From Xanthobacter autotrophicus (GTDB lineage: Bacteria; Pseudomonadota; Alphaproteobacteria; Rhizobiales; Xanthobacteraceae): 39,812 nt of DNA. Shown piece after piece: positions 22,683-39,223 of this stretch. Position 1 is the first letter of the stretch; each line of letters starts with the position of its first letter. The position numbers and the translations under genes are program-made. Location of the stretch: positions 1-39,812 of the forward strand of contig NZ_VAUP01000013.1 of NCBI RefSeq assembly GCF_005871085.1. The letters run 5' to 3'. Under the pieces are notes generated by a model. That model was given only the letters and a program-made list of their open reading frames with translations. It was not told the origin of the DNA and made no database searches.

Positions 22683-23987
22683 ATGGTGGGGGGTATCCGG
22701 GTGTCCGGCGTGGCCCGTGGCGGTCTTGCACTCTGCGCGGCCTTGGTCCTGTCGGCTTGCGAGGAAAAGAACACCTACGTACCGCCGCCGCCCGCCGCCG
22801 TTACCGTTGCCCCGGTTCTGGAAAAGCCGGTCACGCGCTTCCTTGAGCTGACCGGCAACACCGCTGCCATCAATTCGGTGGATCTGGAAGCCCGCGTCCA
22901 GGGCTTCCTCACGCAGATCAACTACAAGGACGGCCAGTTCGCCAAGAAGGGCACTGTCCTGTTCGTGATCGAGCAGGACCAGTACAAGGCCCAGGTGGAC
23001 CAGGCCAAGGCCCAGCTCGCCGCCAACCAGGCCGCGCAGGTGCAGGCCGAAGCCGAGTACAATCGCCAGGCGCAGCTTGCCAAGCAGGACTTCGCCTCCC
23101 AGGCCACCCTCGACCAGGCCCGCGCCAAGCGCGATTCGGCGGTTGCCGAGGTGGCGAACGCCCAGGCCTCCCTGGTGCTTGCCCAGATCAATCTCGGCTA
23201 CACCCAGATTACCGCGCCCTTCGACGGCGCCGTCACCGCCCATCTTCAGGACGTGGGCGCGCTGGTGGGCTACAGCGGCCCGACCAAGCTTGCCACCGTG
23301 GTCCAGGTCAACCCCATTTGGGTCTGGTTCACCTTGAGTGAGCAGGAGGTGCTGCGGATCAAGGAGCATCTGGCCAAGCAGGGCCGTTCGCTGGTCTCCA
23401 TCACCCGCGACGTACCGGACCTCGACGTCCAGATCGGCCTTCAGACCGAGACCGGTTATCCGCACAACGGCAAGATCGACTATGTGGCCCCGCAGGTGGA
23501 CCCCAACCTCGGCACGCTGACGGTGCGCGGCATTTTCCAGAATGACGATTTCGCGCTGCTGCCGGGCCTGTTTACGCGGGTGCGGGTTCCGCTGGGCGCG
23601 GCGCAGACCACCGTGCTGGTGCCGGATGCTGCCCTCAACGCCAACCAGCTGGGACCCTATGTGCTGACCGTGAACGCCGACAATGTGGTCGCACAGACCC
23701 AGGTGACCCTGGGCCAGCTCCAGGCCGACGGCCTGCGCGCCATCCAGAGCGGGCTGAAGGCCGGCGACCGCATCATCATCAACGGCATCCAGCGCGCGGT
23801 GCCGGGCTCGAAGGTGAAGGTGGAGGAGGGCACCATCGTCGGCATCGCGGCACCCGCCATCGACCAGGGGAACAAGCCGCTGGCCAAGCCCGCGGGTGTG
23901 GCCCCCGCTGATGCTCCCGCCGTGGCCGCCCCCTCGGTCGCGCCGTCCGTGGCGCCGTCGCCGGCGCCTGCGACACCGAAGAACTGA
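22683..23987 (+). CDS. RND efflux periplasmic adaptor (membrane fusion) lipoprotein
   Basis: 434 residues. The lipoprotein signal ends LCAALVLSAC, with Cys at about residue 26. The body follows the MexA/AcrA plan: lipoyl-like half VDLEARVQGFLTQINYKDGQ, an alpha-helical hairpin rich in Ala/Gln (about 110-175), second lipoyl half TAPFDGAVTAHLQDVGALVG, beta-barrel domain, and membrane-proximal domain with GLKAGDRIIINGIQRAVPGS. A 60-residue Ala/Pro/Val low-complexity tail follows. It links the inner-membrane RND pump encoded 28 bases downstream to an outer-membrane channel that is not encoded nearby. GGGGAT precedes the chosen ATG; the longer upstream frame is not signal-like. Confidence 0.95.
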   Translation: MVGGIRVSGVARGGLALCAALVLSACEEKNTYVPPPPAAVTVAPVLEKPVTRFLELTGNTAAINSVDLEARVQGFLTQINYKDGQFAKKGTVLFVIEQDQYKAQVDQAKAQLAANQAAQVQAEAEYNRQAQLAKQDFASQATLDQARAKRDSAVAEVANAQASLVLAQINLGYTQITAPFDGAVTAHLQDVGALVGYSGPTKLATVVQVNPIWVWFTLSEQEVLRIKEHLAKQGRSLVSITRDVPDLDVQIGLQTETGYPHNGKIDYVAPQVDPNLGTLTVRGIFQNDDFALLPGLFTRVRVPLGAAQTTVLVPDAALNANQLGPYVLTVNADNVVAQTQVTLGQLQADGLRAIQSGLKAGDRIIINGIQRAVPGSKVKVEEGTIVGIAAPAIDQGNKPLAKPAGVAPADAPAVAAPSVAPSVAPSPAPATPKN

Positions 23988-24015
23988 CCCGCTCTCGAAG
24001 AAAGAGGCTGCGCCC

Positions 24016-27000
24016 ATGATATCGCGCTTTTTCATCGAGCGGCCGGTCCTCTCGAACGTCCTCGCACTCGTCTTCGTGCTGATCGGCCTGGTCTCGCTGA
24101 CCCGGCTGCCGGTGTCGCAGTATCCGAACATCGTGCCGCCTACGGTGTCGGTGTCGACCTCCTATCCCGGTGCGTCCGCCAAGACCATGATCGACACCGT
24201 CGCCCTGCCCATCGAGCAGCAGGTGAACGGCGTCGAGGGCATGTTGTACATGCAGTCTTGGTCGGCCTCCGACGGCACCTACACGCTCATCGTCACCTTC
24301 GACATCGGCGCCGATCCCAACATGGCGCAGGTGCTGGTGCAGAACCGCGTCAACATCGCCCTGGCCTCGCTGCCCACGGCGGTGCAGGCGCAGGGCGTCA
24401 CCATCCTGCAGAAGGGCACCTCGATCCTCGAGTTCGTGACCCTGATCTCGCCGGATGGGCGCTATGACGGGCTGTACCTCAACAACTACGCCATCATCAA
24501 CATCCAGAACGAGCTGGCCCGCGTGGCGGGCGTTGCCAACGTGGGCATCTTCGGCACCGGCACCTATGCCTTGCGCATCTGGATGGACCCGGACCGCATG
24601 CAGGCCTTCGGCCTGACCCCCCAGGACATTTCCAACGCCATCCAGAAGCAGAGCCAGATCGTCACCCCCGGCCAGCTCGGCATCCCGCCGGCGCCGGACA
24701 ATGCCTCCTTCCAGTATACGGTGAACATCGCCGGCCGCCTCGACGACGCCAAGGACTATGAGAACATCATCGTCAAGGTGGACAATTCGGACGGCGGCCG
24801 CATCGTCCGCATCCGCGATATCGGCCGGGTGGAGCTGGGCGCGCAGAGCTATTCCAAGGACTTCACCCAGGACAACAAGCCCGCCGCTGGTATCGGCATC
24901 TTCCAGCTGCCCGCCGCCAACGCCCTCGACGTGTCGGCGCGCGTGGCCAAGAAGATGGAAGAGCTGAAGAAGGACTTCCCCGAAGGCCTCGAATACAGCA
25001 TCCCCTTCAACACCACCCTGTTCGTGACGGCCTCCATCGACGAGGTCTGGAAGACCCTGTTCGAGGCGGCGATCCTGGTGCTGGTGGTGATCCTGCTGTT
25101 CCTCCAGGACTGGCGGGCCACCCTGGTGCCGGCCACCACCGTGCCGGTGACCATCATCGGCGCGTTCGCGGCCATGGACGCCATGGGCTTCACCATCAAC
25201 CTGTCGACGCTGTTCGCCATCATCCTGGCCATCGGCATCGTGGTGGACGACGCCATCGTCATCGTGGAAGGCGTGGCACGCCACATCGAGGAGGGTATGG
25301 CGGGCCAGCCCGCGGCCGAGAAGGCCATGGACGAGCTGTTCGGCCCGGTGGTGGGCATCACGCTGGTGCTCATGAGTGTGTTCCTGCCGGCCTCGTTCAT
25401 TCCGGGCCTGACCGGGCAGATGTTCAAGCAGTTCGCGTTGGTCATCGCCGCCACGGCCTTCATTTCGGCCATCAACGCGGCGACCCTGAAGCCCACCCAG
25501 TGCGCCCTGTGGTTGCGCCAGCCGGTGCCGCCGGAAAAGCGCAACTTTATCTTTCGCGGCTTCAACAAGATTTACGCCAAGGCGGAGCATTGGTATACCG
25601 GCGTCATCTCCCGCATGGTGCACCATTCCAAGGTCATGGTGATCATCGCCCTGGCGCTTATGGGCGTGGCCGCCTACGGCCTCACCCGCGTGCCCACCTC
25701 GTTCCTGCCCATCGAGGACCAGGGTTACTTCCTCGCCCACGTGCAGCTGCCGGACGCCTCGAACCTCAATCGCACCAAGAAGGTGATGGCGGACGTCAGC
25801 GAACGCATCCGCAAGGTGCCGGGGGTCGAGACCGTGCTCGCCATCTCCGGCATTTCGGTGCTGGACAATTCATCCACGCTGTCCAATGCGGGCGTCACCT
25901 ACATCACCCTGAAGCCGTGGTCGGAGCGCTACGCCACTACCGGCCAGGACCTGCTCTCGCTCTATGAAAACCTCAACAAGGCGGTGGCGGACGTGGTCCA
26001 GGCGGAGGTGCTGATCCTCGTGCCGCCGGCCATCCAGGGCATCGGCAACGCCGCCGGCTTCACCATGCAGCCGCAACTGCGCAACGGCAATTTCGACTAC
26101 CGGCTGCTGGAGCAGATCACCACCTCGATGGTGGACAAGGCGCAGGCCCAGTCCGCTCTCGCGCACGTCTCCTCGTCGTTCCGCGCCGGGGCGCCGCAGC
26201 TCGAGGTGGAGGTCAACCGCATCAAGGCGGAGACGCTGGGGGTCACGGTGGGGCAGGTGTTCGACACCATCTCGTCCTATCTGGGCTCGACCTACGTCAA
26301 CCAGATCAACAAGTTCGGCAACGTGTTCCAGGTCTATGTGCAGGCCGAATCGGGCTATCGCGTCACCCCGACCGACCTTGCCAACCTGAAGGTGCGCACG
26401 CCCAAGGGGCAGATGGTTCCGCTTGGCACCCTCGTCACCGTGAAGATGGTGCAGGGCCCGCCGCTCATCTCGCTCTACAACCTGTATCCCAGCTCCACCG
26501 TGGTGGGCGGAACCGCTCAGGGCTTCTCTTCGGGGCAGGCACTGTCCCTCATGGAGCAGATCGCCACCGCGACCCTGCCGCCGGGCACGGGCTTCGAGTG
26601 GACCGCCATGTCCTACCAGGAGAAGGCGGTCGGCAATCAGATCTACTACGTGTTCGGCCTCGCCATCCTGCTGGTCTATTTCGTGCTGGCCGGCCAGTAT
26701 GAGAGCTGGATCCAGCCCATGGCGGTGATCCTGGCGGTGCCCCTGGCTCTGCTCGGCACGGTCGGCGCGTTGGTGGGCCTCGGCATCTCCAACAACCTCT
26801 ACACCCAGATCGGACTGGTGCTCTTGATCGCCCTTGCCTCGAAGAACGCCATCCTCATCGTGGAATATGCGCGCGAGAAAAGGGCGGAGGGCATGGACAT
26901 CATGGATGCGGCGGTGGAGGCCTCGCGCCTCCGGTTCCGGCCCATCCTCATGACCTCCTTCGCCTTCATCCTGGGCGTGTTGCCGCTGGTTTTCGCCACC

Positions 27001-27225
27001 GGCGCCGGTGCCAATTCCCGCAAGTCCATCGGCATCGCCGTGGTGTCGGGCATGCTGGCGTCCACCTGCCTCGCGGTCCTGTTCGTGCCGTCTTTCTATA
27101 CGGTGCTGCAGCGGTTCGAGGAGAAGCTGAAGGGCAAGAAGAAGCCCGCGGGCCATGCGCCGCCCGAGCCGCCGGAAACCCCGGAGGCCGATGTCGGCGT
27201 GCCACCCGCGCCCGCATCTGCCTGA
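24016..27225 (+). CDS. RND multidrug efflux permease, HAE1 (AcrB/MexB) family
   Basis: 1069 residues, typical of proton-driven hydrophobe/amphiphile efflux pumps. It starts MISRFFIERPVLSNVLALVF, the family N-terminus. Twelve membrane helices in two repeats flank two large periplasmic loops. The proton-relay residues are present: Asp411-Asp412 in IGIVVDDAIVIVEG and Lys943 in ASKNAILIVEYAREKR. PSSFLP-like VPTSFLPIEDQGYF marks the second half. The C-terminal 25 residues are a charged and Pro-rich tail. It forms a tripartite pump with the adaptor encoded just upstream and presumably a TolC-like channel from elsewhere. Substrate range is not predictable; neighbouring genes give no clue. GAGG lies nine bases before the ATG. 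Confidence 0.97.
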   Translation: MISRFFIERPVLSNVLALVFVLIGLVSLTRLPVSQYPNIVPPTVSVSTSYPGASAKTMIDTVALPIEQQVNGVEGMLYMQSWSASDGTYTLIVTFDIGADPNMAQVLVQNRVNIALASLPTAVQAQGVTILQKGTSILEFVTLISPDGRYDGLYLNNYAIINIQNELARVAGVANVGIFGTGTYALRIWMDPDRMQAFGLTPQDISNAIQKQSQIVTPGQLGIPPAPDNASFQYTVNIAGRLDDAKDYENIIVKVDNSDGGRIVRIRDIGRVELGAQSYSKDFTQDNKPAAGIGIFQLPAANALDVSARVAKKMEELKKDFPEGLEYSIPFNTTLFVTASIDEVWKTLFEAAILVLVVILLFLQDWRATLVPATTVPVTIIGAFAAMDAMGFTINLSTLFAIILAIGIVVDDAIVIVEGVARHIEEGMAGQPAAEKAMDELFGPVVGITLVLMSVFLPASFIPGLTGQMFKQFALVIAATAFISAINAATLKPTQCALWLRQPVPPEKRNFIFRGFNKIYAKAEHWYTGVISRMVHHSKVMVIIALALMGVAAYGLTRVPTSFLPIEDQGYFLAHVQLPDASNLNRTKKVMADVSERIRKVPGVETVLAISGISVLDNSSTLSNAGVTYITLKPWSERYATTGQDLLSLYENLNKAVADVVQAEVLILVPPAIQGIGNAAGFTMQPQLRNGNFDYRLLEQITTSMVDKAQAQSALAHVSSSFRAGAPQLEVEVNRIKAETLGVTVGQVFDTISSYLGSTYVNQINKFGNVFQVYVQAESGYRVTPTDLANLKVRTPKGQMVPLGTLVTVKMVQGPPLISLYNLYPSSTVVGGTAQGFSSGQALSLMEQIATATLPPGTGFEWTAMSYQEKAVGNQIYYVFGLAILLVYFVLAGQYESWIQPMAVILAVPLALLGTVGALVGLGISNNLYTQIGLVLLIALASKNAILIVEYAREKRAEGMDIMDAAVEASRLRFRPILMTSFAFILGVLPLVFATGAGANSRKSIGIAVVSGMLASTCLAVLFVPSFYTVLQRFEEKLKGKKKPAGHAPPEPPETPEADVGVPPAPASA

Positions 27226-27255
27226 TCGGGGCGCGCCGGCCCTGCCGAAACCCGT

Positions 27256-27284
27256 GACATCTGCCCATTATGCGGGCAGATGTC
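27256..27284. terminator. Perfect hairpin after the RND operon
   Basis: A perfect 11-base stem (GACATCTGCCC / GGGCAGATGTC) with a 7-base AT-rich loop begins 30 bases past the pump stop codon. Position suits a terminator, but no T-run follows. It could equally be an operator dyad for the following gene, whose likely promoter region (CCTATAACGG near 27307) lies just downstream. Confidence 0.5.
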
Positions 27285-27399
27285 GCCGCAAAGTCGCGCT
27301 TTCTCCCTATAACGGCCTTGTCTAACCTTGGCCGGAAACCGCCCACCCCACCCCTTGGGCTGCCCGTAGGGCCAATGCCCGCAGGACCAGGTGCCATAT

Positions 27400-30300
27400 A
27401 TGTCGATCCTCGCGAGCCTGCATCACGTTACGAGCTACAAGTACGAGCGCCCGGTCACGATGGGGCCGCAGACCATCCGCCTGCGTCCGGCGCCGCACAG
27501 CCGTACCGAGATCCCCGCCTATTCGCTCAAGATTTCACCAGCTGAACATTTCATCAACTGGCAGCAGGACCCGTTCGGCAACTGGCTCGCGCGCATCGTG
27601 TTCCCGGAGAAGGTGGAGGAGTTCAAGGTCGAGGTGGACCTCCTCGCCAAGCTCGACGTGCTCAATCCGTTCGACTTCTTCGTCGAGGAATATGCCGAGA
27701 ATTTCCCCTTCACCTACACCCCCGAGCTGAAGGCGGAGCTGGCCCCCTATCTCGAGCTGGAGAAGGAGGGCGCCCCGTTCGACGCCTTCGTCGCCGGGGT
27801 ATCGCTTGAGCCGCGCCGCATCGTGGATTTCCTGGTGGAGATCAACCAGCTCCTCCAGAAGGAGATCGGCTACGTCATCCGCATGGAGCCGGGCGTCCAG
27901 ACCCCGGACGAGACGCTCACCAAGAAGCTCGGCTCCTGCCGCGACACCGGCTGGCTCTTGGTGCAGGTGCTGCGCCATCTCGGCCTCGCCGCGCGCTTCG
28001 TCTCCGGCTACCTGATCCAGCTGAAGCCCGACGTGGCGGCCCTCGACGGTCCCTCCGGCACTGACGTGGACTTCACCGACCTCCACGCTTGGTGCGAGGT
28101 CTATGTGCCGGGCGCGGGCTGGATCGGCCTCGACCCCACCTCGGGGCTGCTGTGCGGCGAGGGCCACATCCCGCTCGCCGCGACCCCGCACTATCGTTCC
28201 GCCGCCCCCATCACCGGCTATCTGATGGAGAAGACGGAGACCGAGTTCGGCTTCGACATGAGCGTCGCCCGCGTGGCCGAGGCGCCGCGCGTGACCCTGC
28301 CGTTCTCCGACGAGACCTGGGCCGCCCTCGACGAGCTGGGCCAGAAGGTGGACGTGGACCTCAAGGCCGGCGACGTGCGCCTGACCATGGGTGGCGAACC
28401 CACCTTCGTCTCCATCGACGACTATGAATCTCCCGAGTGGAACACCGAGGCGCTCGGCCCGCAGAAGCGGGTGCGCGCGGATGACCTCATCCGCCGCCTG
28501 CGCAAGCGCTTCTCCACCGAGGGCGTGCTGCATTACGGCCAGGGCAAGTGGTATCCCGGCGAGACGCTGCCGCGCTGGTCGTTCGACCTGTTCTGGCGCA
28601 AGGACGGCCAGCCCATGTGGCGGCGCGAGGACCTGATCGCCGACGAGAAGACCAATTACGCCCCGACCCCGGCCGACGCCGAGCGTTTCTGCCGGGCGGT
28701 GGCCGAAAAGCTCGCGGTGGGCTCGCAGTTCGTGCTGCCCGCCTACGAGGACAACATCTATTACATGTGGAAGGAGCAGTGCCTTCCCGAGAACATCGCC
28801 CCCGGCGACGAGCGCATGGCCGACGAGGTGCAGCGCCGCATGCTGGCGCGTACCTTCAACCAGGGCCTCGCCAATGCCACCGGCTCGGTGCTGCCCCTGC
28901 GCCGGGTGTGGACGCCCGAAGGCTTTGCCTGGCGCTCTGAGCTGTGGACCTTCCGCCGCGAATTCCTGTTCCTGATCCCCGGCGAAAGCCCCATGGGCTA
29001 TCGCCTGCCGCTGGAATCGCTGCAGTTCCTCGCGCCCACGCGCTACCCCTATGTGGTGCCCACCGACCCGTTCGAGCCGCGCGGGCCGCTGCCGGACGCC
29101 GATGAGCTCGCCGCCCGCTACCGCGCCGGCGGTGAAGGCACGGCCGGTACCGACGGCGCCACGCCGGTCGATGCCCGCGAGCGCTATTCCGTCGCCCCGC
29201 GCCGGGAAGCCTACGGCACCGGTGAGCGGGCGCAGGAGCTGGTGCGCCAGTATCTGGCCCAGAACGACACCCAGGTGTTCACCGCCGACACACGCACCGC
29301 GCTTTGCGTGGAGCCGCGCAACGGCCGCCTCTGCGTGTTCCTGCCCCCGGTGGAGACGCTGGAGGACTATGTGGACCTCATCGCCGCCGTCGAGCAGGTG
29401 GCGATTGAGCTAAACACCCCTCTGCACCTGGAGGGCTATCCGCCGCCCTTCGACTACCGCCTCAACCTCATCCGGCTCGCGCCTGATCCGGGCGTGCTGG
29501 AGGTGAACGTCCATCCGTCCGACACCTGGTCCGGCTGCGTGGAGATCACCCGCATCCTCTATGAGGAAGCGCGCCTCGCCCGCCTCGGCACCGAGAAGTT
29601 CATGGTGGACGGCCGCCACACCGGTACCGGCGGCGGCAACCACGTGGTGGTGGGCGGCTCCACACCGGCCGACAGCCCCTTCCTGCGCCGGCCCGACCTG
29701 CTGAAGAGCCTGCTGCTGTTCTGGCAGCGCCACCCCTCCTTGTCCTACATGTTCTCGGGCCTGTTCATCGGCCCGACCTCCCAGCATCCGCGGGTGGACG
29801 AGGCCCGGCACGACAGCCTTTACGAGCTGGAGATCGCGCTTTCCAAGATCGGCCTGCCCGGAGCGGCCGAGGGGCCGACCCCGCCGTGGCTGGTGGACCG
29901 CCTGCTGCGCAATCTGCTGGTGGACGTCACCGGCAACACCCACCGCACCGAAATCTCCATCGACAAGCTCTATTCGCCGGATGGCCCCACCGGCCGCCTG
30001 GGCCTGGTGGAGTTCCGCTGCTTCGAGATGCCGCCGGACTGGCGCATGAGTCTGGCCCAGCAACTGCTGCTGCGCGCCCTCATCGCCCGGCTGTGGCACA
30101 AGCCGGTCACCGGCAAGTGCGCGCGCTGGGGCACCATCCTCAACGACCGCTTCATGCTGCCCCATTACGTCTGGGCCGACTTCGTGGACGTGCTGGAGGA
30201 CCTCTCGGACGCCGGCTACAGCTTCGATCCGGAATGGTTCCGCGCCCAGTTCGAGTTCCGCTTCCCGCACTACGGCAAGGTGCAACGGGGCGGCGTCGAC

Positions 30301-30810
30301 GTGGAGATCCGCCAGGCGCTCGAATGCTGGCACGTGCTGGGTGAAGAGGGCGTCGTCGGCGGCACCGCCCGCTACGTGGACTCCTCGGTGGAGCGCCTGC
30401 AGGTGAAAGTGGAGGGCTTCAACCCCGCCCGTCACATCGTCACCTGCAACGGGCGGCGGCTGCCGCTGGCGCCCACCGGCCGCAACGGCACCTTCGTCGC
30501 CGGCGTGCGCTACAAGGCGTGGCAGCCCTGGTCGGGCCTGCATCCCACCATCCCGGTCCAGGCGCCCCTCACCTTCGACGTGGTGGATACCTGGAGCGAG
30601 CGCTCGCGCGGCGGCTGCCGCTATTACGTGTCGCATCCGGGCGGTCGCAGCTACGAGACCTTCCCGGTGAATTCCTATGAAGCCGAGGCCCGCCGCCTCG
30701 CCCGCTTCCAGGATTACGGCCACACGCCCGGCACCACTCCCGTTCCCGAGGAGAACGCGCCGGACGAGTTCCCCACCACCCTCGACCTGCGCCGTCCCAT
30801 CGGCGCGTAA
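27400..30810 (+). CDS. Transglutaminase-like protein fused to DUF2126 putative amidoligase
   Basis: 1136 residues. Residues 1-85 are the bacterial transglutaminase N-terminal domain (LHHVTSYKYERPVTMGPQTI). The transglutaminase core follows, with triad Cys180 (LGSCRDTGWLL), His229 (LHAWCEVYVP) and Asp245 (GLDPTSG). From about 320 to the end lies DUF2126: RLTMGGEPTFVSIDD, LEVNVHPSDTW, GRHTGTGGGNHVVVGG, HRTEISIDKLYSP and GLVEFRCFEMPPDWRMS, a Glu/His/Arg-rich pattern like glutamate-cysteine ligase/glutamine-synthetase-type amidoligases. The likely role is amide-bond making plus peptide-bond handling on an unknown peptide or protein in the cytoplasm; no signal peptide is seen. A GTG nine bases upstream, better spaced from AGGA, is an alternative start. 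The next two genes belong to the same predicted pathway. Confidence 0.92.
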   Translation: MSILASLHHVTSYKYERPVTMGPQTIRLRPAPHSRTEIPAYSLKISPAEHFINWQQDPFGNWLARIVFPEKVEEFKVEVDLLAKLDVLNPFDFFVEEYAENFPFTYTPELKAELAPYLELEKEGAPFDAFVAGVSLEPRRIVDFLVEINQLLQKEIGYVIRMEPGVQTPDETLTKKLGSCRDTGWLLVQVLRHLGLAARFVSGYLIQLKPDVAALDGPSGTDVDFTDLHAWCEVYVPGAGWIGLDPTSGLLCGEGHIPLAATPHYRSAAPITGYLMEKTETEFGFDMSVARVAEAPRVTLPFSDETWAALDELGQKVDVDLKAGDVRLTMGGEPTFVSIDDYESPEWNTEALGPQKRVRADDLIRRLRKRFSTEGVLHYGQGKWYPGETLPRWSFDLFWRKDGQPMWRREDLIADEKTNYAPTPADAERFCRAVAEKLAVGSQFVLPAYEDNIYYMWKEQCLPENIAPGDERMADEVQRRMLARTFNQGLANATGSVLPLRRVWTPEGFAWRSELWTFRREFLFLIPGESPMGYRLPLESLQFLAPTRYPYVVPTDPFEPRGPLPDADELAARYRAGGEGTAGTDGATPVDARERYSVAPRREAYGTGERAQELVRQYLAQNDTQVFTADTRTALCVEPRNGRLCVFLPPVETLEDYVDLIAAVEQVAIELNTPLHLEGYPPPFDYRLNLIRLAPDPGVLEVNVHPSDTWSGCVEITRILYEEARLARLGTEKFMVDGRHTGTGGGNHVVVGGSTPADSPFLRRPDLLKSLLLFWQRHPSLSYMFSGLFIGPTSQHPRVDEARHDSLYELEIALSKIGLPGAAEGPTPPWLVDRLLRNLLVDVTGNTHRTEISIDKLYSPDGPTGRLGLVEFRCFEMPPDWRMSLAQQLLLRALIARLWHKPVTGKCARWGTILNDRFMLPHYVWADFVDVLEDLSDAGYSFDPEWFRAQFEFRFPHYGKVQRGGVDVEIRQALECWHVLGEEGVVGGTARYVDSSVERLQVKVEGFNPARHIVTCNGRRLPLAPTGRNGTFVAGVRYKAWQPWSGLHPTIPVQAPLTFDVVDTWSERSRGGCRYYVSHPGGRSYETFPVNSYEAEARRLARFQDYGHTPGTTPVPEENAPDEFPTTLDLRRPIGA

Positions 30811-31322
30811 GGCCGCATCGGCGCCCGCCCTTGGTTCCCTCCGCCTCCCTCTCGGGAGGGGAGGGGCGAGGGCAGAGCCGTCGGGCCGCGCCTGCGGCCC
30901 GGTTTCGGCCGGATCAGGCGGATGGCATGAAGGGCGACCTTTCAGGCCTGGATGAAATCCATTTGGAATCAAGCCCCTGGTGCAGGTGAGCCGGTCTGGG
31001 CCGAAGGGCCCCGGCGCGCGGGAAGGCGGCTTAAGCCAGGCCTCCGTCGCCTCTGCGAAGGCTGGGCGAGATTGGAGTCGGCGGAGGAGCCCCGTGGAAG
31101 GGGCGTTCCGACCTATTCCAAAGAAGAGTGCATCCGGCGCCGGTCCGGTCATAATGGGGCGTTCGGGAATGCCGGGCACCTCGAGGGCGTTGCCATTGGA
31201 TTGCGCGGCAATTCGATGGATAAAACGGTCTCTTCTCTTAGGCTTAGAGGCGGGTTCAGATTTTGGACGGGATCGCTGCGCACATTCCGCCCAAAACGAA
31301 TCCGGCCGTGGAAGGGGTAGTC
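30811..31322. other. Intergenic region upstream of the ATP-grasp/alpha-E gene
   Basis: 512 bases. Its left part has a CCCTCTCGGGAGGGGAGGGG palindrome-like element (about 30847-30868), akin to the repeats at 7332 and 8443, which may end the preceding transcript. The middle is GC-rich without a credible gene. The right end (31140-31260) is AT-richer and contains the candidate promoter listed separately. Confidence 0.4.
31196..31224 (+). promoter_or_regulatory. Candidate housekeeping-type promoter for the ATP-grasp/alpha-E gene
   Basis: TTGGAT (31196-31201), a 17-base spacer, then GATAAA (31219-31224), within an AT-richer island about 100 bases before the chosen GTG start. Both hexamers are only partial consensus matches, so this is a candidate only. 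Confidence 0.35.
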
Positions 31323-33830
31323 GTGTCGGGGGCCGAGCAGCGGAGCGAGGTGTTTGAACGGGCGGCCGCGGAAAGCCTCATCGGAGGCTACCGGACCTTG
31401 CCCGGCATCCGCGACGAGATGATGGATCAGGACGGCCAGCCGCGCCGCCACTGGATGCCATTTCTCGCTGCCCTTGCGGAGCTCGGTTCCGACGAGCTGC
31501 GCCGGCGCTTTTCCGCCGCCGATCGCTATCTGCGCGATTCGGGCGTCTTCTACCGCGTCTATGACGATACCGGCGGCGGCGAGCGGCCCTGGTCGCTCAG
31601 CCACATGCCGCTGCTCATCGAGGACGCGGACTGGCAGGTGCTCTCCGCCGGCCTCATCGAGCGCGCCGAACTGCTGGAAGTGGTGCTTCAGGACCTCTAT
31701 GGTGCCGGGCATCTGGTCGCCGATGGCGATTTGCCCGCTGCGGCCGTGGCCGGCAGCCCTGAATTCCTGCGGCCGCTGGTGGGCATCAAGCCCGAGGGTG
31801 GGCGCTTCCTGCGGGTCTATGCCGCCGATGTGGGGCGTGGACCGGATGGCCGCTGGTGGGTGCTTGCCGATCGCACCCAGGCGCCATCGGGCGCCGGCTA
31901 CGCGCTGGAGAACCGCCTCGCCTCCACCCGCGCCCTGCCGGACGTGTCGCGCAATCTCAACATGCAGCGCGTCGCATCCTTCTTCCAGGCATTGCGCACC
32001 TCGCTGATGAAGCTGGACCGGACCGGGGAGGGGCGCATCGGCCTGCTGAGCCCGGGCCCGCTCAACGAAACTTATTTCGAGCACGCGCTGCTCGCCCGCT
32101 ATCTCGGCTTCCTGCTGGTGGAGGGCGAGGACCTGACCGTGCGCGGCGATACGCTCCACGTGCGCACGGTGGCGGGGCTGCGGCGCATCGACGTGCTGCT
32201 GCGCCGGCTCGATGCCGACTTCGCCGATCCTCTGGAGCTGAATGCCGGCTCGCGCCTCGGCGTGCCCGGCCTCGTTCAGGCGGTGCGCATGGGCGGCGTG
32301 TCGCTGGCCAATGCGCTGGGCACCGGCCTCATCGAGGCGCCTGCGCTTCTTGCCTTCCTGCCGCGCATCGCCACCCGCGTGTTCGGCCGGCCGCTCAAGC
32401 TGCCCCATGTGGCCACCTGGTGGTGCGGCCAGCCCGCCGAGCGGGCGCAGGTGATGGAGCATCTGGACGAACTGGTCATTTCCTCGGCCTTCGGGCGCGC
32501 CCTGCCGGGCCTGCCGGACGGGGGATCGGTGCTGGGCGCGGACCTGACCGCCACCGACCGGCGGCGCCTGTCCACCCTGCTGGCCCGGCGCGGCGGCGAC
32601 GTGGTGGGCCAGGATATCGCCCGCCTGTCCACCACCCCGGTGTGGACGGGGGAAAAGCTGACGCCGCGCCCGTTCATGCTGCGCGTCTTCCTTGCCGCCA
32701 CCGACAAGGGCTGGACGGTGATGCCCGGCGGCTTCTGCCGCATCTCCTCCGCCCCCGACGCCCGCGCCGTCTCCATGCAGAAGGGCGACCGCTCGGCGGA
32801 CGTGTGGGTGCTGGCGGACGCCGAGGTGGCGGACACCACGCTGCTGCCAAGCTCGGCCAACGTGAAGGTGCGGAGGTCCTCCGGCACGCTGCCGAGCCGG
32901 GCGGCGGACAATCTGTTCTGGCTCGGGCGCTATGTGGAGCGCGCCGAGGCGACGCTTCGCCTGTCGCGGGTGCTGGTGGGCCGGCTCGCGGAAAGCGGCG
33001 ACAGCGGTACCAGCCCCCTCGTCACGCGTCTGCTGGGCCTTCTGGGCGCCTGGGGCGCCATGCCGCGTGACCTTGCCCGGGCCACCCCGGCCCGCTATGC
33101 GGTGGCGGTGCTGACCCGCCGCGACGTGCCCGGCGCCTTGCCGCAACTGGTGCAGGCGGCCCGGGCCTCGGCCTCGGTGATCCGCGACCGTTTCTCGCCC
33201 GACGCCTGGCGGGCGCTGGTGGATCTTGAGGCCTGCGTGGATGCGCCCATCGCCCCCGCCCCCTCCGAGGCGGATGCGGCGGAGCGGGCGGATGCCGCCT
33301 TGCGGATCATTGCCGCCTTCTACGGCCTCGCCTCGGAAAACATGAACCGGCTGACCGGCTGGCGGTTTCTGGAGCTGGGCCGGCGCACCGAGCGGGCCAT
33401 CGGCACCCTGCGCTTCGCCCGCACCTTCGGCGAGGTGGGGGCGCCGCTCGGCTCCCTTGATGCGCTGCTGCAGGTGGCGGACAGCCTCATCACCTACCGC
33501 ACCCGCTATGTGATGATGGAGGCGCGCGGACCGGTGCTCGACCTGGTGCTGCTCGATCCGGACAATCCGCGCTCGGTGGCGTTCCAGGTGCATCGCATGG
33601 CCAATCACCTGAAGGTGCTGCCGGGCCGCGACCAGGATGCGCCGCCGCCGCTCTGGGAGCGCCTTGTCGCCCGCATGCAGGCGGAACTGGCCGCGAGCAC
33701 GGCGGAGAGCTTCGAGCCGGCCTGGTTCGACGCCATGGAGAAGATGCTGATGGAGCTGTCCGACGAGATCGCCGCCCATTACTTCCTCCAGGGCCACGCC
33801 CCGGAGATGACGCACTCGCTTTCCATGTGA
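31323..33830 (+). CDS. Circularly permuted ATP-grasp protein fused to an alpha-E domain
   Basis: 835 residues. The N-terminal ~510 residues form a circularly permuted type 2 ATP-grasp domain (formerly DUF404/DUF407): SGVFYRVYDDTGGGERPWSL, VVLQDLYGAGHLVADGDLP, RFLRVYAADVGRGPDGRWWV, ADRTQAPSGAGYALENRLAS, GLLSPGPLNETYFEHALLAR and LPHVATWWCGQ. From about residue 520 comes a helical alpha-E domain (LPSRAADNLFWLGRYVERAE, ending DEIAAHYFLQGHAPEM). In many genomes these are two adjacent genes; here they are one chain. The ATP-grasp part probably ligates an amino acid or peptide at the expense of ATP; the alpha-E role is unknown. The GTG at 31323 is preferred, with GGAAGGGG five bases upstream; a TTG 20 codons earlier is possible. 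It sits between two transglutaminase-like genes. Confidence 0.92.
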   Translation: MSGAEQRSEVFERAAAESLIGGYRTLPGIRDEMMDQDGQPRRHWMPFLAALAELGSDELRRRFSAADRYLRDSGVFYRVYDDTGGGERPWSLSHMPLLIEDADWQVLSAGLIERAELLEVVLQDLYGAGHLVADGDLPAAAVAGSPEFLRPLVGIKPEGGRFLRVYAADVGRGPDGRWWVLADRTQAPSGAGYALENRLASTRALPDVSRNLNMQRVASFFQALRTSLMKLDRTGEGRIGLLSPGPLNETYFEHALLARYLGFLLVEGEDLTVRGDTLHVRTVAGLRRIDVLLRRLDADFADPLELNAGSRLGVPGLVQAVRMGGVSLANALGTGLIEAPALLAFLPRIATRVFGRPLKLPHVATWWCGQPAERAQVMEHLDELVISSAFGRALPGLPDGGSVLGADLTATDRRRLSTLLARRGGDVVGQDIARLSTTPVWTGEKLTPRPFMLRVFLAATDKGWTVMPGGFCRISSAPDARAVSMQKGDRSADVWVLADAEVADTTLLPSSANVKVRRSSGTLPSRAADNLFWLGRYVERAEATLRLSRVLVGRLAESGDSGTSPLVTRLLGLLGAWGAMPRDLARATPARYAVAVLTRRDVPGALPQLVQAARASASVIRDRFSPDAWRALVDLEACVDAPIAPAPSEADAAERADAALRIIAAFYGLASENMNRLTGWRFLELGRRTERAIGTLRFARTFGEVGAPLGSLDALLQVADSLITYRTRYVMMEARGPVLDLVLLDPDNPRSVAFQVHRMANHLKVLPGRDQDAPPPLWERLVARMQAELAASTAESFEPAWFDAMEKMLMELSDEIAAHYFLQGHAPEMTHSLSM

Positions 33831-33913
33831 AGGTTTGGAGCACCCATTAGAGGGCGATTGAGCCAGAAGATCCCGGATGCGTCGCATCCGTGGGATCCAC
33901 GAGGAAGGGACAG

Positions 33914-34798
33914 ATGCTCTACGACATCCGCCAGACCACCACCTACAGCTATCAGGTGCCCGTGCGGGTGGTGCGGCAGGTGCTGCGCATGACGCCGGTG
34001 GACCGCATCGGCCACCAGCACGTCATCGCCCACATCCTCGACATCGATCCCGATCCGGCGGAGCTGGAGCACGGCATCGACTTCTTCGGCAATGGCCTCA
34101 CCTGGCTCACCATCGACCAGCCCCACGGCCATCTCTCGCTCACCACCCGCAGCCGGGTGGACGTGACCTCCACCGCTTTGCCGGACCCGGCCGAGACGCT
34201 GCTGGTGGACGATGTACGGGCCGCGGCGCTGGAGGAGGCCGACCTCGGGCCGGACGCGGCTGCCCACGGTCTGTTCCCGAGCCGCGCCGTGCCGCTCGAT
34301 CCCGAAATTACCGAGTGGACTGCCACCAGTTTCCGCGGCGACCGCCCGGTGCTGGAGGCCGGGCTGGAACTGATGCATCGGGTGTACGAGGATTTCACCT
34401 ACCAGCCCGGCGCAACCCATGTGGCCACCCCGCCCCATGAGGCGTTCGCCGCCAAGGCCGGGGTGTGCCAGGACTTCGCCCAGGTGATGATTGCCGGGCT
34501 GCGCGGCCTCGGCCTGCCGGCGCGCTATGTGTCGGGCTATCTGCGCACCATCCCGCCGGAAGGCCAGCCGCGCCTTGAGGGGGCGGACGCCACCCACGCG
34601 TGGGTGGAGATCTGGTGCGGGCCGGAGGCCGGCTGGATCGGCCTTGATCCCACCAACGCCATTCCGGTGGGGGACGACCACATCATCCTCGCCGTCGGCC
34701 GCGACTATGCCGATGTGGCGCCGGTGGACGGGGTGATCGTCACCTCCGGCGACCATCGCCTGTCCGTGGGCGTGGACGTGGCCCCCGTGGTGCGGTGA
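33914..34798 (+). CDS. Transglutaminase-like family protein (alpha-E/ATP-grasp associated)
   Basis: 294 residues starting MLYDIRQTTTYSYQVPVRVV, the bacterial transglutaminase N-terminal domain. The core has a complete papain-like triad: Cys185 in AGVCQDFAQVMI, His228 in THAWVEIWCG and Asp245 in GLDPTNAIPVGDDH. The last 50 residues are the usual short beta tail (DYADVAPVDGVI). Such proteins are cytoplasmic here (no signal peptide) and may cleave or transfer peptide/isopeptide bonds. GAGGAAGGGA a few bases before ATG decides the start. The 83-base gap after the ATP-grasp/alpha-E gene suggests one operon. It is convergent with matB, with 87 bases between stops. Confidence 0.93.
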   Translation: MLYDIRQTTTYSYQVPVRVVRQVLRMTPVDRIGHQHVIAHILDIDPDPAELEHGIDFFGNGLTWLTIDQPHGHLSLTTRSRVDVTSTALPDPAETLLVDDVRAAALEEADLGPDAAAHGLFPSRAVPLDPEITEWTATSFRGDRPVLEAGLELMHRVYEDFTYQPGATHVATPPHEAFAAKAGVCQDFAQVMIAGLRGLGLPARYVSGYLRTIPPEGQPRLEGADATHAWVEIWCGPEAGWIGLDPTNAIPVGDDHIILAVGRDYADVAPVDGVIVTSGDHRLSVGVDVAPVVR

Positions 34799-34885: not shown

Positions 34886-36415
34886 TCACGCCACGGCGCG
34901 GAAGATGTCCTTGTAGGTGTCGCGCAGCACGTTCTTCTGCACCTTGCCCATGGTGTTGCGCGGCAGCTCGGCCACGAAGAACACCCGCTTGGGCTGCTTG
35001 AACTTGGCGAGCCGGTTCTCCAGCGCGGCGTTGATATCCGCCTCGGTCAGGCTGGCGCCCGCCACCGGCACCACCACGGCGGTGACCCCCTCGCCGAAAT
35101 CCGGGTGGGGCACCCCGATCACCGCGCTTTCCGCCACGCCGGGAATGGCGTCGATCTCGCCTTCCACTTCCTTGGGATAGACATTGAAGCCGCCGGTGAT
35201 GACGAGGTCCTTGCCCCGGCCGACGATGTGCACATAGCCCTTGGCGTCGATCTTGCCGAGATCGCCGGTGATGAAGTAGCCGTCGCGAAATTCCGCCGCA
35301 GTCTTCTCCGGCATGCGCCAGTAGCCCTTGAAGACGTTGGGTCCCTTCACCTCGATCATGCCGATGTCGTCGGTGGGCAGCACCCGCCCGCTCTCCGGAT
35401 CGGTGACGCGTAGCGAGATGCCGGGCAGGGGGAAGCCCACGGTGCCGGCTATGCGCTCGCCATCATAGGGATTGGAGGTGTTCATGCCGGTCTCGGTCAT
35501 GCCGTAGCGTTCGAGAATGGCGTGGCCGGTGCGCTCGAAGAAGGCGCGGTGGGTCTCCGCCAGCAGCGGCGCCGAGCCGGAGACGAACAGGCGCATCTTC
35601 GCCGTCGCCTCCTTGGTGAGGCCCGGCTGGTCGAGGAGGCGGGTGTAGAAGGTGGGCACGCCCATCAGGCTCGTCACCTCGCCCGCCGCCATCAGCTCCA
35701 GCGCCTCGCGCGGGTCGAACTTCGCCCGGAAGATCATGGCGGCGCCGGCCAGGAGCACGATGTTGGACGCCACGAACAGCCCGTGGGTGTGGAAGATGGG
35801 CAGGGCGTGGAGCAGCACGTCGTCGCCCGTGAACCGCCATTCGTCCTTCAGCGTCAGGGCGTTGGACAAGAGGTTGTCGTGGCTCAGCATGGCGCCCTTG
35901 GCGCGGCCCGTGGTGCCCGAGGTGTAGAGGATGCCGCCGAGGTCTTCCGGCCCGCGTAGGACGTCGGCAAATTCCGTGGGCAGGTGGGCCGACCCGTCCG
36001 TCAGCGATCCGGTACCGTCGGCACCCAGCGTCTCGATGGAAGGCACGCCAAGCCGCGTCGTCAGGGCGCGGGCCTCGGCCTCGATGTGAGGCGGGCAGAT
36101 GAAGAGCGTCGGCTCCGCATCCGAGAGGAAATACTCCACCTCGTTCAGGGTGTAGGCGGTGTTGAGCGGCAGGTAGACGCCGCCGGCGCGCACCGTGGCG
36201 AGATAAAGGGCGAGGGCCGGCCAGGACTTCTCCACCTGCACCGCCACCCGGTCGCCGGGCTTCACGCCGCGCGCCACCAGCAGATGGGCCAGGCGGGCGG
36301 AGAGCGCCAGCGCGTCGCCATAGGTCTCCACCCGTCCGTCGGCGAGGGTGGCGAGCGGGGTGTCGAGGGCGGGCATGGCGGCGCGGATGGCGCCGAAGAG
36401 ATGGTTCTCGCTCAT
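34886..36415 (-). CDS. matB: Malonyl-CoA synthetase (malonate-CoA ligase)
   Basis: 509 residues of the acyl-adenylate-forming (ANL) superfamily. It converts malonate + CoA + ATP to malonyl-CoA in the cytoplasm. Visible motifs are the P-loop YTSGTTGRAKGAMLSHDNLL, HALPIFHTHGLFVASN, LFVSGSAPLLAETHRAFFER, ERYGMTETGMNTSNPYDGER, the hinge/ATP Asp in YFITGDLGKIDAKGYVHIVG, and a C-terminal catalytic Lys in RNTMGKVQKNVLRD. The MTETGMNTSNP stretch and the SENHLFGAIRAAM N-terminus are typical of Rhizobium-type MatB rather than general acyl-CoA ligases. It is the second gene of the matAB operon, 61 bases after matA, which fixes the substrate assignment well. Without that context a methylmalonate-CoA ligase activity would also be possible. 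Confidence 0.95.
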   Translation of the reverse strand: MSENHLFGAIRAAMPALDTPLATLADGRVETYGDALALSARLAHLLVARGVKPGDRVAVQVEKSWPALALYLATVRAGGVYLPLNTAYTLNEVEYFLSDAEPTLFICPPHIEAEARALTTRLGVPSIETLGADGTGSLTDGSAHLPTEFADVLRGPEDLGGILYTSGTTGRAKGAMLSHDNLLSNALTLKDEWRFTGDDVLLHALPIFHTHGLFVASNIVLLAGAAMIFRAKFDPREALELMAAGEVTSLMGVPTFYTRLLDQPGLTKEATAKMRLFVSGSAPLLAETHRAFFERTGHAILERYGMTETGMNTSNPYDGERIAGTVGFPLPGISLRVTDPESGRVLPTDDIGMIEVKGPNVFKGYWRMPEKTAAEFRDGYFITGDLGKIDAKGYVHIVGRGKDLVITGGFNVYPKEVEGEIDAIPGVAESAVIGVPHPDFGEGVTAVVVPVAGASLTEADINAALENRLAKFKQPKRVFFVAELPRNTMGKVQKNVLRDTYKDIFRAVA

Positions 36416-36476
36416 TGTTTCTCTCGTGCCATCGGCCCCTTCTTCCGGGGACCGATCTGGTTTGGTCCGTCCTGCC

Positions 36477-37847
36477 TCAGGAGGTGGGAACGAGCGCGCG
36501 GCTGGCGGCCTCGGCCTTCAGCAGCTTTTTGACGGGTCCGCTCGCTACCACCTCGCCCTTGCCGAGGAAGGCTTCGTGGTTCTTCTCGATGTCCGCCAGC
36601 ACATAGCGGTAGTTCACCATCAGCCCGGCGGCCTGGGCGATGCCCTTGGACGAGAGGTCGCCCATGGGGTTGATGCGCTCCAGCCGCGCCCCGTTGCCGA
36701 GGTGGAAGCGGGCCACCGGGTCCACCGGCTTGCCCTTGGTGGTGCGGGCGACAAGGAAATAATAGGCCGCTGCCGCCGAGAGCACCGGCACCAGCGCCTC
36801 ACGCGTCTCCGGCTTCTCGGCCCAGTCCGGAGCATCGAGCGCGGCCAGCGCCTCGCGATCGAGGGGGGTGAGGGCGGGGGAATTCTCCGCCTTGCGCTCG
36901 GCATCCAGCCAGGCACGGAAGCCGGGCACCGGCGAAAGCGTTACGAAGGTGGAGAGCGAGGGGATCTCGCGGGAGATCTCCTCCACCACCTGCTTGATCA
37001 GGAAATTGCCGAAGGAGACGCCGCCGAGCCCGCGCTGGCAGTTGGAGATGGAATAGAACACCGCGGTGGTGGCCTTTTCCGGCTCCAGATGGGCGCGGGA
37101 CTGGTCGAGCACCTGGGCGATGCCGCCGGGAATATCCTTCGTCAGCGCCACTTCCACGAAGATCAGCGGTTCGTCCACGAGGGCGGGGTGGAAGAAGGCG
37201 TAACAGCGCCGGTCCGGCGTATCCACGCGGGCGCGCAGATCGTTCCAGTCGCGGATGGCATGCACCGCCTCGTAGCGGATGATCTTTTCCAGCACGTTGG
37301 CGGGCGTCGACCAGTCGATGCGGCGCAGCACGAGAAACCCCCGGTTGAACCAGGACGAGAAGAGATGTCCGAAATCCCGGTCCACCGCGGCAAGATCGTG
37401 GCGATGGACGAGGGCGTCCATCAGATTCTCGCGCATGCGCACCAGGGAGAGGGTGGCGCCGGGGCCGAGATTGAACCGGCGGAACAGCTCCTGCCGGCGC
37501 GGCTCGCTGGCGAGATGGAGTTCTGCGGCCGCCGCGTCCGAGCCGGTGCGGCCATAGCTCTCGATGGCTTTTTCAAGCCGTGCGCGATCCGGCCCGAATG
37601 TCTCTGCCAGCGCTTCGAAAAAGGCGATGCGCTCGCCGGTCTTCATGCGGGCGTAGCGATCCAGGATGTCGGAGGCCAGCGCAACGCCGGAAGCCTCGCC
37701 CCGACCAGAGAGAAGCTGCTCGCAGCGCTCCACCAGGGTCGCCGCCTTGGTGGCGCCGGATACCCTGCTCGACCGGTCGAGCAGGGAGCGCCCCCGTTCC
37801 GCGATGGAGGTGAGGAGGTCGCCGAAGAAGGAAGTATTGGAACTCAT
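36477..37847 (-). CDS. matA: Malonyl-CoA decarboxylase
   Basis: 456 residues, full length for the malonyl-CoA decarboxylase family shared with mammalian MLYCD. It decarboxylates malonyl-CoA to acetyl-CoA, so with MatB it lets the cell use malonate as carbon source. A helical N-terminal domain (about 1-140) precedes the GNAT-like catalytic domain, with HLEPEKATTAVFYSISNCQR, GLGGVSFGNFLIKQVVEEIS, FVTLSPVPGFRAWLDAE, and the late catalytic-His segment ARFHLGNGARLERINPMGD. It is the first gene of the leftward mat operon. A promoter and a MatR-type operator lie about 190-240 bases upstream, next to the divergent regulator gene. Confidence 0.95.
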   Translation of the reverse strand: MSSNTSFFGDLLTSIAERGRSLLDRSSRVSGATKAATLVERCEQLLSGRGEASGVALASDILDRYARMKTGERIAFFEALAETFGPDRARLEKAIESYGRTGSDAAAAELHLASEPRRQELFRRFNLGPGATLSLVRMRENLMDALVHRHDLAAVDRDFGHLFSSWFNRGFLVLRRIDWSTPANVLEKIIRYEAVHAIRDWNDLRARVDTPDRRCYAFFHPALVDEPLIFVEVALTKDIPGGIAQVLDQSRAHLEPEKATTAVFYSISNCQRGLGGVSFGNFLIKQVVEEISREIPSLSTFVTLSPVPGFRAWLDAERKAENSPALTPLDREALAALDAPDWAEKPETREALVPVLSAAAAYYFLVARTTKGKPVDPVARFHLGNGARLERINPMGDLSSKGIAQAAGLMVNYRYVLADIEKNHEAFLGKGEVVASGPVKKLLKAEAASRALVPTS

Positions 37848-39146: not shown

Positions 39147-39223
39147 GCACCCGTAGCTCAGCTGGATAGAGCGCCGCCCTCCGAAGGCGGAGGCCACACG
39201 TTCGAATCGTGTCGGGTGCGCCA
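39147..39223 (+). tRNA. tRNA-Arg (anticodon CCG)
   Basis: 77 bases including an encoded CCA. It has a seven-pair acceptor stem (GCACCCG / CGGGTGC), D-arm GCTC...GAGC, anticodon stem CCGCC/GGCGG with loop CTCCGAA (anticodon CCG at 39181-39183, reading CGG codons), T-stem ACACG/CGTGT with loop TTCGAAT, and discriminator G. All stems pair fully. It is a lone tRNA gene between a decayed half-copy and an IS630-type element. Confidence 0.97.

Follow-up and report, generated by a model that had tools for sequence, protein, structure and literature searches.

Three consecutive genes on the plus strand of a contig of the soil bacterium Xanthobacter autotrophicus, here called P1, P2 and P3, encode a protein joining a transglutaminase-like domain to DUF2126, a circularly permuted ATP-grasp fused to an alpha-E domain, and a stand-alone transglutaminase-like protein. 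The window is the whole stretch of DNA that we analysed, 39,812 nucleotides (nt) long, which is bases 1-39812 of contig 14 of this 5.0-Mb genome. An initial annotation made from the letters alone had described three consecutive plus-strand genes with these domains, and the open reading frames (ORFs) and Pfam bear this out. P1 matches Bact_transglu_N (7e-26), Transglut_core (3.5e-16) and DUF2126 (PF09899; 1328 bits, model positions 1-826 of 826); P2 matches CP_ATPgrasp_2 (452 bits) and Alpha-E (231 bits); and P3 matches Bact_transglu_N (3.5e-21) and Transglut_core (7.4e-20). Scanning the three proteins against NCBIfam gave zero matches. The features of the locus are as follows.

27226-27399, plus strand: region upstream of the trio, without a sigma-54 -24/-12 motif
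27400-30810, plus strand: P1, 1136 amino acids (aa), ATG start (GTG at 27391 also possible)
27937-28134, plus strand: transglutaminase triad of P1, Cys180 (27937-27939), His229 (28084-28086) and Asp245 (28132-28134)
28228-30792, plus strand: DUF2126 domain of P1 (PF09899, putative amidoligase)
30811-31262: gap between P1 and P2, 452 nt
31263-33830, plus strand: P2, 855 aa, TTG start (true start uncertain)
31866-31874, plus strand: P2 residues 202-204, A-D-R in place of the E-D-N of unfused ATP-grasps
32481-32537, plus strand: P2 residues 407-425, the place of the lost K...GGYG lid loop
32889-33785, plus strand: alpha-E helical domain of P2 (PF04168)
33890-34798, plus strand: P3, 302 aa, GTG start, stand-alone transglutaminase-like protein with triad Cys193 (34466), His236 (34595) and Asp253 (34646)

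The trio is a recurrent operon-like unit. A genome scan found at least 583 stretches encoding a relative. Judged by record title, the best 80 belong to Proteobacteria, Verrucomicrobia, Bacteroidota and Phycisphaera; the closest among the matches listed is X. autotrophicus AM3, which is 96% identical at the protein level across the DUF2126 gene. Synechococcus elongatus also gives matches to both DUF2126 and the circularly permuted ATP-grasp. Among 398 sampled Pseudomonadota genomes, 120 carry DUF2126 and 218 have a circularly permuted ATP-grasp match (213 above the cut-off). We examined 160 stretches, made up of 80 relatives from the genome scan, 78 from as many of the 120 DUF2126 genomes of the 398-genome sample and two of this genome. 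DUF2126 was present in 158 of them, giving 123 loci after dereplication at 85% identity. The order DUF2126, fused ATP-grasp/alpha-E, transglutaminase was consecutive in 86 of the 123 loci, where consecutive means among detected family members with no limit on gap length (3855 nt at one locus), and the association is thus not a matter of chance. By the rule of our script the fused copy was missing from 25 loci, although a cut or divergent copy is in fact present in four of these. Measured from the longest possible starts, so that true gaps may be longer, the gap between genes 1 and 2 was at most 60 nt in 63 of 88 loci (452 nt in the window) and that between genes 2 and 3 at most 60 nt in 84 of 89. 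These short inner gaps therefore leave little room inside the trio for a precursor gene. The longer P1-P2 gap of the window has no Rfam match, and no inverted repeats reaching 10 nt were found in it.

The ATP-grasp half of P2 has lost two motifs that its unfused paralogues retain. Where the unfused paralogues read V-L-E-D-N...P-S-G, the window P2 reads V-L-A-D-R-T-Q-A-P-S-G, and the metal-site motif E-x-N occurs in 0 of 130 fused ATP-grasps, a set that includes the window and was not dereplicated, versus 41 of 41 unfused paralogues. Position by position, E at 202 is found in 1/130 fused and 41/41 unfused sequences and N at 204 in 0/130 and 41/41; 120 of the 130 fused sequences have Arg at 204 instead, and 113 have Q at position 206. 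The lid motif GGYG divides the two groups in the same way (0/130 fused, two of them without letters in the region, versus 41/41 unfused), and the lid lysine, Lys 407, is kept by 38 fused sequences versus all 41 unfused ones. These counts include four sequences moved from the unfused to the fused class, namely L007, L050 and L077 (cut by the stretch end) and L072 (984 aa, no alpha-E match); the move was not blind, as the four were spotted through motif absence, and before it the unfused counts were 41/45 for both E and N, with 126 fused sequences. In a tree of 112 sequences, for which 60 of the 129 other fused sequences were randomly drawn, fused and unfused ATP-grasps separated with a support of 1.0. 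One fused copy (L143:1995-4529) is alone in having the lid sequence SGGRG, the nearest to an intact GGYG, and is possibly an intermediate.

We take the E and N of E-x-N to be metal ligands, as in glutathione synthetases; our literature search gave no paper in support. Because this motif, in its presumed role, and the lid have both been lost, the fused ATP-grasp half of P2 is probably not a working ATP ligase, and we refer to it as a pseudo-ligase. The initial annotation had counted two ATP-dependent bond makers in the trio, a count that is not supported for the ATP-grasp, in which E-x-N and GGYG are absent from 130 of 130 homologues.

The fold itself is kept. The AlphaFold model of P2 has a mean predicted local distance difference test score (pLDDT) of 88.2, and in Foldseek the top match of its ATP-grasp half, which has a glutathione-synthetase-like fold, was 3n6x (E 6e-31, TMt 0.87), a circularly permuted ATP-grasp from Methylobacillus flagellatus described as a putative glutathionylspermidine synthase. 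This closest solved fold retains VLEDN...PSG and KEVQGSGGYG, and P2 retains neither. Next came eukaryotic glutathione synthetases (from E 1e-10), Cp1B and glutathionylspermidine synthetase/amidase. The last of these, the E. coli enzyme 2io7 (E 4e-6), couples a ligase with a cysteine amidase in one protein; it is a precedent for how such a system might work and not a member of the family. In the trio, by comparison, the cysteine enzyme is of the transglutaminase type and is fused to DUF2126 rather than to the ATP-grasp. Cp1B (9cjn, from E-64 biosynthesis, 13% identity to P2) is an active fungal enzyme, characterised as a pseudodipeptide-forming ATP-grasp ligase (PMC12568646; this and the other articles given by PMC number are cited from excerpts of their text). 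The alpha-E domain of P2 has four residues, W553, R556, Y557 and R560, that are invariant in 47 sequences.

With its fold intact and many other residues common to the unfused type, the fused ATP-grasp might still be an ATP-dependent ligase that works through other residues, and a two-ligase pathway would then stand. Conservation of the replacing residues R204 and Q206 argues that the site is under constraint, which would suit such an enzyme; the total loss of E-x-N and GGYG and the retention of the lid lysine in less than a third of fused sequences oppose it, and we consider an active fused ligase improbable.

The transglutaminase triads of the other two proteins are complete. Cys180, His229 and Asp245 of P1 are unchanged in 120 of 120 sequences, window included, and Cys193, His236 and Asp253 in 98 of 98 sequences of the P3 type, in agreement with the earlier view that both transglutaminase triads are intact. 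Within DUF2126, E333, E678, D696, E701, N703, H748, R798, R803, R834, R837, H848, R849, E851, D855, E871, R873 and E876 are invariant in 120/120 sequences, and N846 (119/120), D341 (111/120) and D340 (98/120) are shared by most. From the invariant residues we picked E333, E701, N703, H748, R849, E851, E871, R873 and E876 as candidates for the DUF2126 active site. Loss of catalytic residues across homologues, which the initial annotation had regarded as fatal to its proposed pathway, is thus seen in part, for the fused ATP-grasp, and in neither the two triads nor the DUF2126 residues just listed. The AlphaFold model of P1, whose homologue alignment held 57 sequences, has a mean pLDDT of 80.6, and its best solved match in Foldseek was the transglutaminase protein 3isr (E 4e-13), which is the best solved relative for P3 as well. 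For DUF2126 we tentatively infer a glutamine-synthetase-like fold, partly on the strength of its Pfam name, 'putative amidoligase'. DUF2126 is split over two frames in L177 (genome G389) and lies in several pieces at G267:C1:3612606-3614702; these are possibly broken genes or sequencing errors. This genome has a further stand-alone transglutaminase-like gene on contig 16 (L119:9230-10102), scoring 127 bits against the transglutaminase domain of P1 and 84 against P3.

The same genome encodes an unfused ATP-grasp operon and an Anbu proteasome-like protein, both missed by the initial annotation.

L118:8184-10013, contig 9: unfused circularly permuted ATP-grasp with both motifs
L118:10110-11060, contig 9: alpha-E
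L118:11091-12074, contig 9: transglutaminase (the whole operon, L118:8184-12074, is contig 9 positions 26184-30074)
470685-471266, contig 23 (L305), minus strand: gene for an Anbu proteasome-like protein, adjacent to neither ATP-grasp operon

The contig 23 protein matches solved structures of Anbu, with E values from 4e-66 to 2e-49. Neither the window trio nor the contig 9 operon has an Anbu gene among its adjoining ORFs. The contig 9 operon is followed by an ABC ATPase gene that is PstB-like by eye.

DUF2126 was seen only in genomes that also have an unfused-type ATP-grasp. An unfused-type match, defined by score (E < 1e-155, a range typical of unfused copies; the fused copy of the window scores 3e-136), was present in 120 of 120 DUF2126 genomes versus 91 of 278 genomes without DUF2126 (Fisher p 9e-44, not corrected for kinship), the type being assigned from match scores and E-x-N having been read in 41 copies and a few more. 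At least two circularly permuted ATP-grasp copies were present in 114 of the 120. Given this co-occurrence, it seems that DUF2126 was added to the unfused operon rather than the other way round.

An association of amidoligase, ATP-grasp, alpha-E and transglutaminase genes was described by Iyer et al. (2009), according to PMC6376114, PMC5666114 and PMC3597751, so the cluster type is already known from comparative genomics, as the initial annotation had said. The neighbourhoods reported there contain the same families in the same association as the window trio. Compared with that work as quoted, our analysis differs in finding the fused ATP-grasp without its E-x-N and lid motifs throughout and DUF2126 confined to genomes with an unfused-type paralogue. 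In literature searches on the family names and on inactive or degenerate ATP-grasps, which did not cover Iyer et al. (2009) itself, we saw no mention of a degenerate fused ATP-grasp. The Anbu operon is alike in having homologous ATP-grasp, alpha-E and transglutaminase genes, and its three non-Anbu genes stand together on contig 9; the window trio differs by its DUF2126 and its fused degenerate ATP-grasp, with Anbu apart on contig 23. The ATP-grasp of an Anbu operon releases inorganic phosphate from ATP (PMC6376114).

A survey of neighbouring ORFs of at least 60 aa gave 35 clusters recurring in at least five of the 123 loci, and representatives of 28 of the 35 were scanned with Pfam (17 of the 28 were unmatched). 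The recurrent neighbours recognised were alpha-E (24 loci), an RND permease (12), Anbu (8), an ABC ATPase, HlyD, a sensor kinase, a response regulator, a ComEC-like protein, an AMP-binding protein, GGDEF and RidA/YjgF. The RND permease relative lies a median of 137 nt upstream, which could reflect either synteny or a transport link; in the window, an RND efflux permease gene (23896-27225, same strand) ends 174 nt 5' of P1. Three unnamed clusters are antisense to alpha-E (10/10, 19/20 and 7/7 members), and some other unnamed clusters are confined to close relatives. A filter for clusters with a median below 260 aa that lie at most 600 nt away, on the same strand as DUF2126, in more than three loci left two clusters antisense to alpha-E and the RidA/YjgF family. 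No recurrent substrate, carrier or precursor gene was recognised among ORFs of at least 60 aa at the 123 loci, in agreement with the earlier remark that the trio has no obvious substrate gene.

Seven loci (L073, L051, L141, L074, L069, L157 and L136) have a RidA/YjgF gene directly after the P3 homologue on the same strand, assigned by PF01042/PF14588 in the one representative scanned. RidA/YjgF proteins form an enamine/imine deaminase family, which would fit nitrogen metabolism. We regard this gene as a lead for a lineage-specific fourth member of the system and not as a peptide precursor.

The lack of a recognised carrier bears on protein tagging, which PMC6376114 and PMC5666114 quote as the proposal of Iyer et al. 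(2009). By this account DUF2126 and the partner ATP-grasp would ligate a short peptide to proteins, and the transglutaminases and Anbu would remove the tag or degrade the protein. The Anbu-like ORFs at eight loci, mostly adjoining DUF2126, and the Anbu gene on contig 23 are in its favour. Even so we judge it unlikely: Anbu lies far from the trio in this genome, the survey recognised no recurrent carrier, and Anbu showed neither specific interactions nor amidase activity on the substrates tested in PMC6376114.

Upstream of DUF2126, sigma-54 promoter motifs are enriched. A -24/-12 score of at least 9/11 was reached at 34 of 122 loci (p 2e-17) and upstream of 16 of 35 unfused ATP-grasps (p 2e-13), compared with 43 of 1201 control ORFs, which include spurious antisense ORFs, and 6 of 98 fused ATP-grasps. 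After shuffling, 6.0% of the DUF2126 upstream regions scored at least 9 and 0.7% at least 10. NtrC boxes upstream of the unfused operon gave p 0.015. The enrichment in other lineages fits published nitrogen control of related genes. In P. putida, PP_2688 (a circularly permuted ATP-grasp type 2 protein) and PP_2685 (a proteasome beta subunit of the Anbu type) are up by about 4 log2 on nitrate versus ammonium, and nitrogen depletion induces the PP_2688 promoter 3.7-fold (PMC8050072); Anbu is also raised in nitrogen-limited P. putida (PMC5666114). B. cenocepacia has an NtrC- and sigma-54-dependent cluster of DUF404/407, DUF403, a transglutaminase and a 'large protein containing transglutaminase-like domain' (PMC5491218), the last of which, judging from its name, may be a DUF2126 protein.

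Scavenging of amines or amides is another conceivable role, in which DUF2126 would cap an amine and the transglutaminase-like enzymes would later hydrolyse the amide, freeing the nitrogen. Amine capping of this kind is done by gamma-glutamyl-amine synthetases. The nitrogen-limitation control of the linked operon (PMC5491218, PMC8050072), the sigma-54 enrichment, a weak Foldseek likeness of P1 to glutamine synthetase and to the gamma-glutamylmethylamide synthetase 9qur (probability 0.25; both at E 0.1-0.4), the RidA/YjgF gene after P3 homologues and the marine co-occurrence of transglutaminase and ATP-grasp domains with urea metabolism (PMC3597751) are all consistent with scavenging. On the other side, the scanned neighbour clusters, most of them without a Pfam match, included nothing recognisable as a dehydrogenase, an oxidase or a dedicated transporter, although an ABC ATPase and the RND permease recur. 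We doubt that scavenging is the function, and hold it about as unlikely as tagging.

Domain content, residue conservation and loss, gene order, co-occurrence and promoter-motif enrichment can all be read directly from the sequences, and from them we infer the catalysis, its direction, the kind of substrate, the role of the pseudo-ligase and a cytosolic location. The reading that we prefer, to which we give a probability of roughly one half, is a module with one ligase, two cysteine enzymes and a pseudo-ligase that was added to the unfused operon and is nitrogen-linked in many bacteria. Such a module would make and break an amide bond. DUF2126, as a glutamine-synthetase-like amidoligase, would activate a carboxylate with ATP and join it to an amine, and the transglutaminase-like domain fused to it in P1, together with the separate P3, would use its Cys-His-Asp triad to hydrolyse or transfer that same bond. 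The fused ATP-grasp/alpha-E protein would have given up the use of ATP and Mg while keeping the fold, and most likely would serve as a subunit that holds substrate or product. The trio would extend the second operon of unfused ATP-grasp, alpha-E and transglutaminase, which would be the source of the other ligation step. The pathway would be switched on under nitrogen limitation in many bacteria, in Xanthobacter probably not through sigma-54, and its likely role would be the handling of small peptides or amine conjugates for nitrogen economy.

Several results weigh against this one-ligase reading, beginning with the ligase itself. Glutamine synthetase chains matched P1 in Foldseek weakly, at E 0.1-0.4 and a probability of at most 0.75, and comparing the DUF2126 profile with those of glutamine synthetase, GshA and YbdK gave a null result, with mixed controls (GshA versus YbdK was found at 97.9%, glutamine synthetase versus YbdK was null). 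For the partner operon, neither Glu nor Gln stimulated phosphate release by the Anbu-operon ATP-grasp, a measurement that does not tell ligation from hydrolysis (PMC6376114). Nor is the trio obligate. Besides the uncorrected kinship and score-based typing noted above, six DUF2126 genomes have a single circularly permuted ATP-grasp (G345, G036, G049, G064, G097 and G267, the DUF2126 match being fragmentary in G097, at a contig end, and in G267, in pieces), and a fused ATP-grasp occurs in 11 genomes without DUF2126 (G194, G197, G024, G223, G229, G241, G259, G291, G329, G114 and G126). These 11 genomes have a second circularly permuted ATP-grasp besides. Their fused copies have N at position 204 in 0/11 and E at 202 in 1/11, a loss that speaks for the pseudo-ligase, whose role may be independent of DUF2126.

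The nitrogen link meets objections as well. The best sigma-54 score in the window (26900-27460) is 7/11, that of the contig 9 operon is also 7, and neither promoter has the motif; eleven close relatives (L002-L011 and L029) score 7-9. By named loci, assigned to lineages from their record titles, the motif is found in 3 of 26 Alphaproteobacteria versus 18 of 33 others, and kinship was handled in these promoter counts solely by dereplicating loci at 85%. NtrC boxes are not enriched upstream of DUF2126 (43/122 versus 354/1201, p 0.11), and the PP_2685 promoter was nitrogen-agnostic in a reporter test (PMC8050072). Because the window and contig 9 promoters are without the motif, as are most of those in Alphaproteobacteria, the nitrogen link is, on present promoter evidence, seen in other lineages and not in Xanthobacter.

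A bolder extension of the preferred reading takes the replacement of Asn by a conserved Arg (120/130) as a sign that the pseudo-ligase was repurposed. It would be a non-catalytic carrier or allosteric subunit for the pair of DUF2126 ligase and cysteine hydrolase, which with the unfused operon would form a two-ligase, nitrogen-responsive conjugation cycle of a biochemically undescribed type; we put this forward tentatively, as something we would sooner bet against. DUF2126 is common (120/398 genomes), yet the term did not occur in the literature that we searched. Should the fused ATP-grasp prove to be no ligase, DUF2126 to rely on the unfused operon and nitrogen limitation to be the proper condition, the function of the trio could be put to a defined test, with a clear choice of the proteins to combine, those to omit and the time of sampling.

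Elsewhere in the window, long antisense ORFs of up to 912 aa span the cluster (for example 31149-33887, minus strand) and resemble the shadow ORFs of high-GC DNA. Genes for malonyl-CoA synthase and malonyl-CoA decarboxylase follow directly after P3 on the minus strand (34886-37847), and a tRNA gene lies at 39147-39220; nothing else in the window passes the gathering threshold of Rfam.

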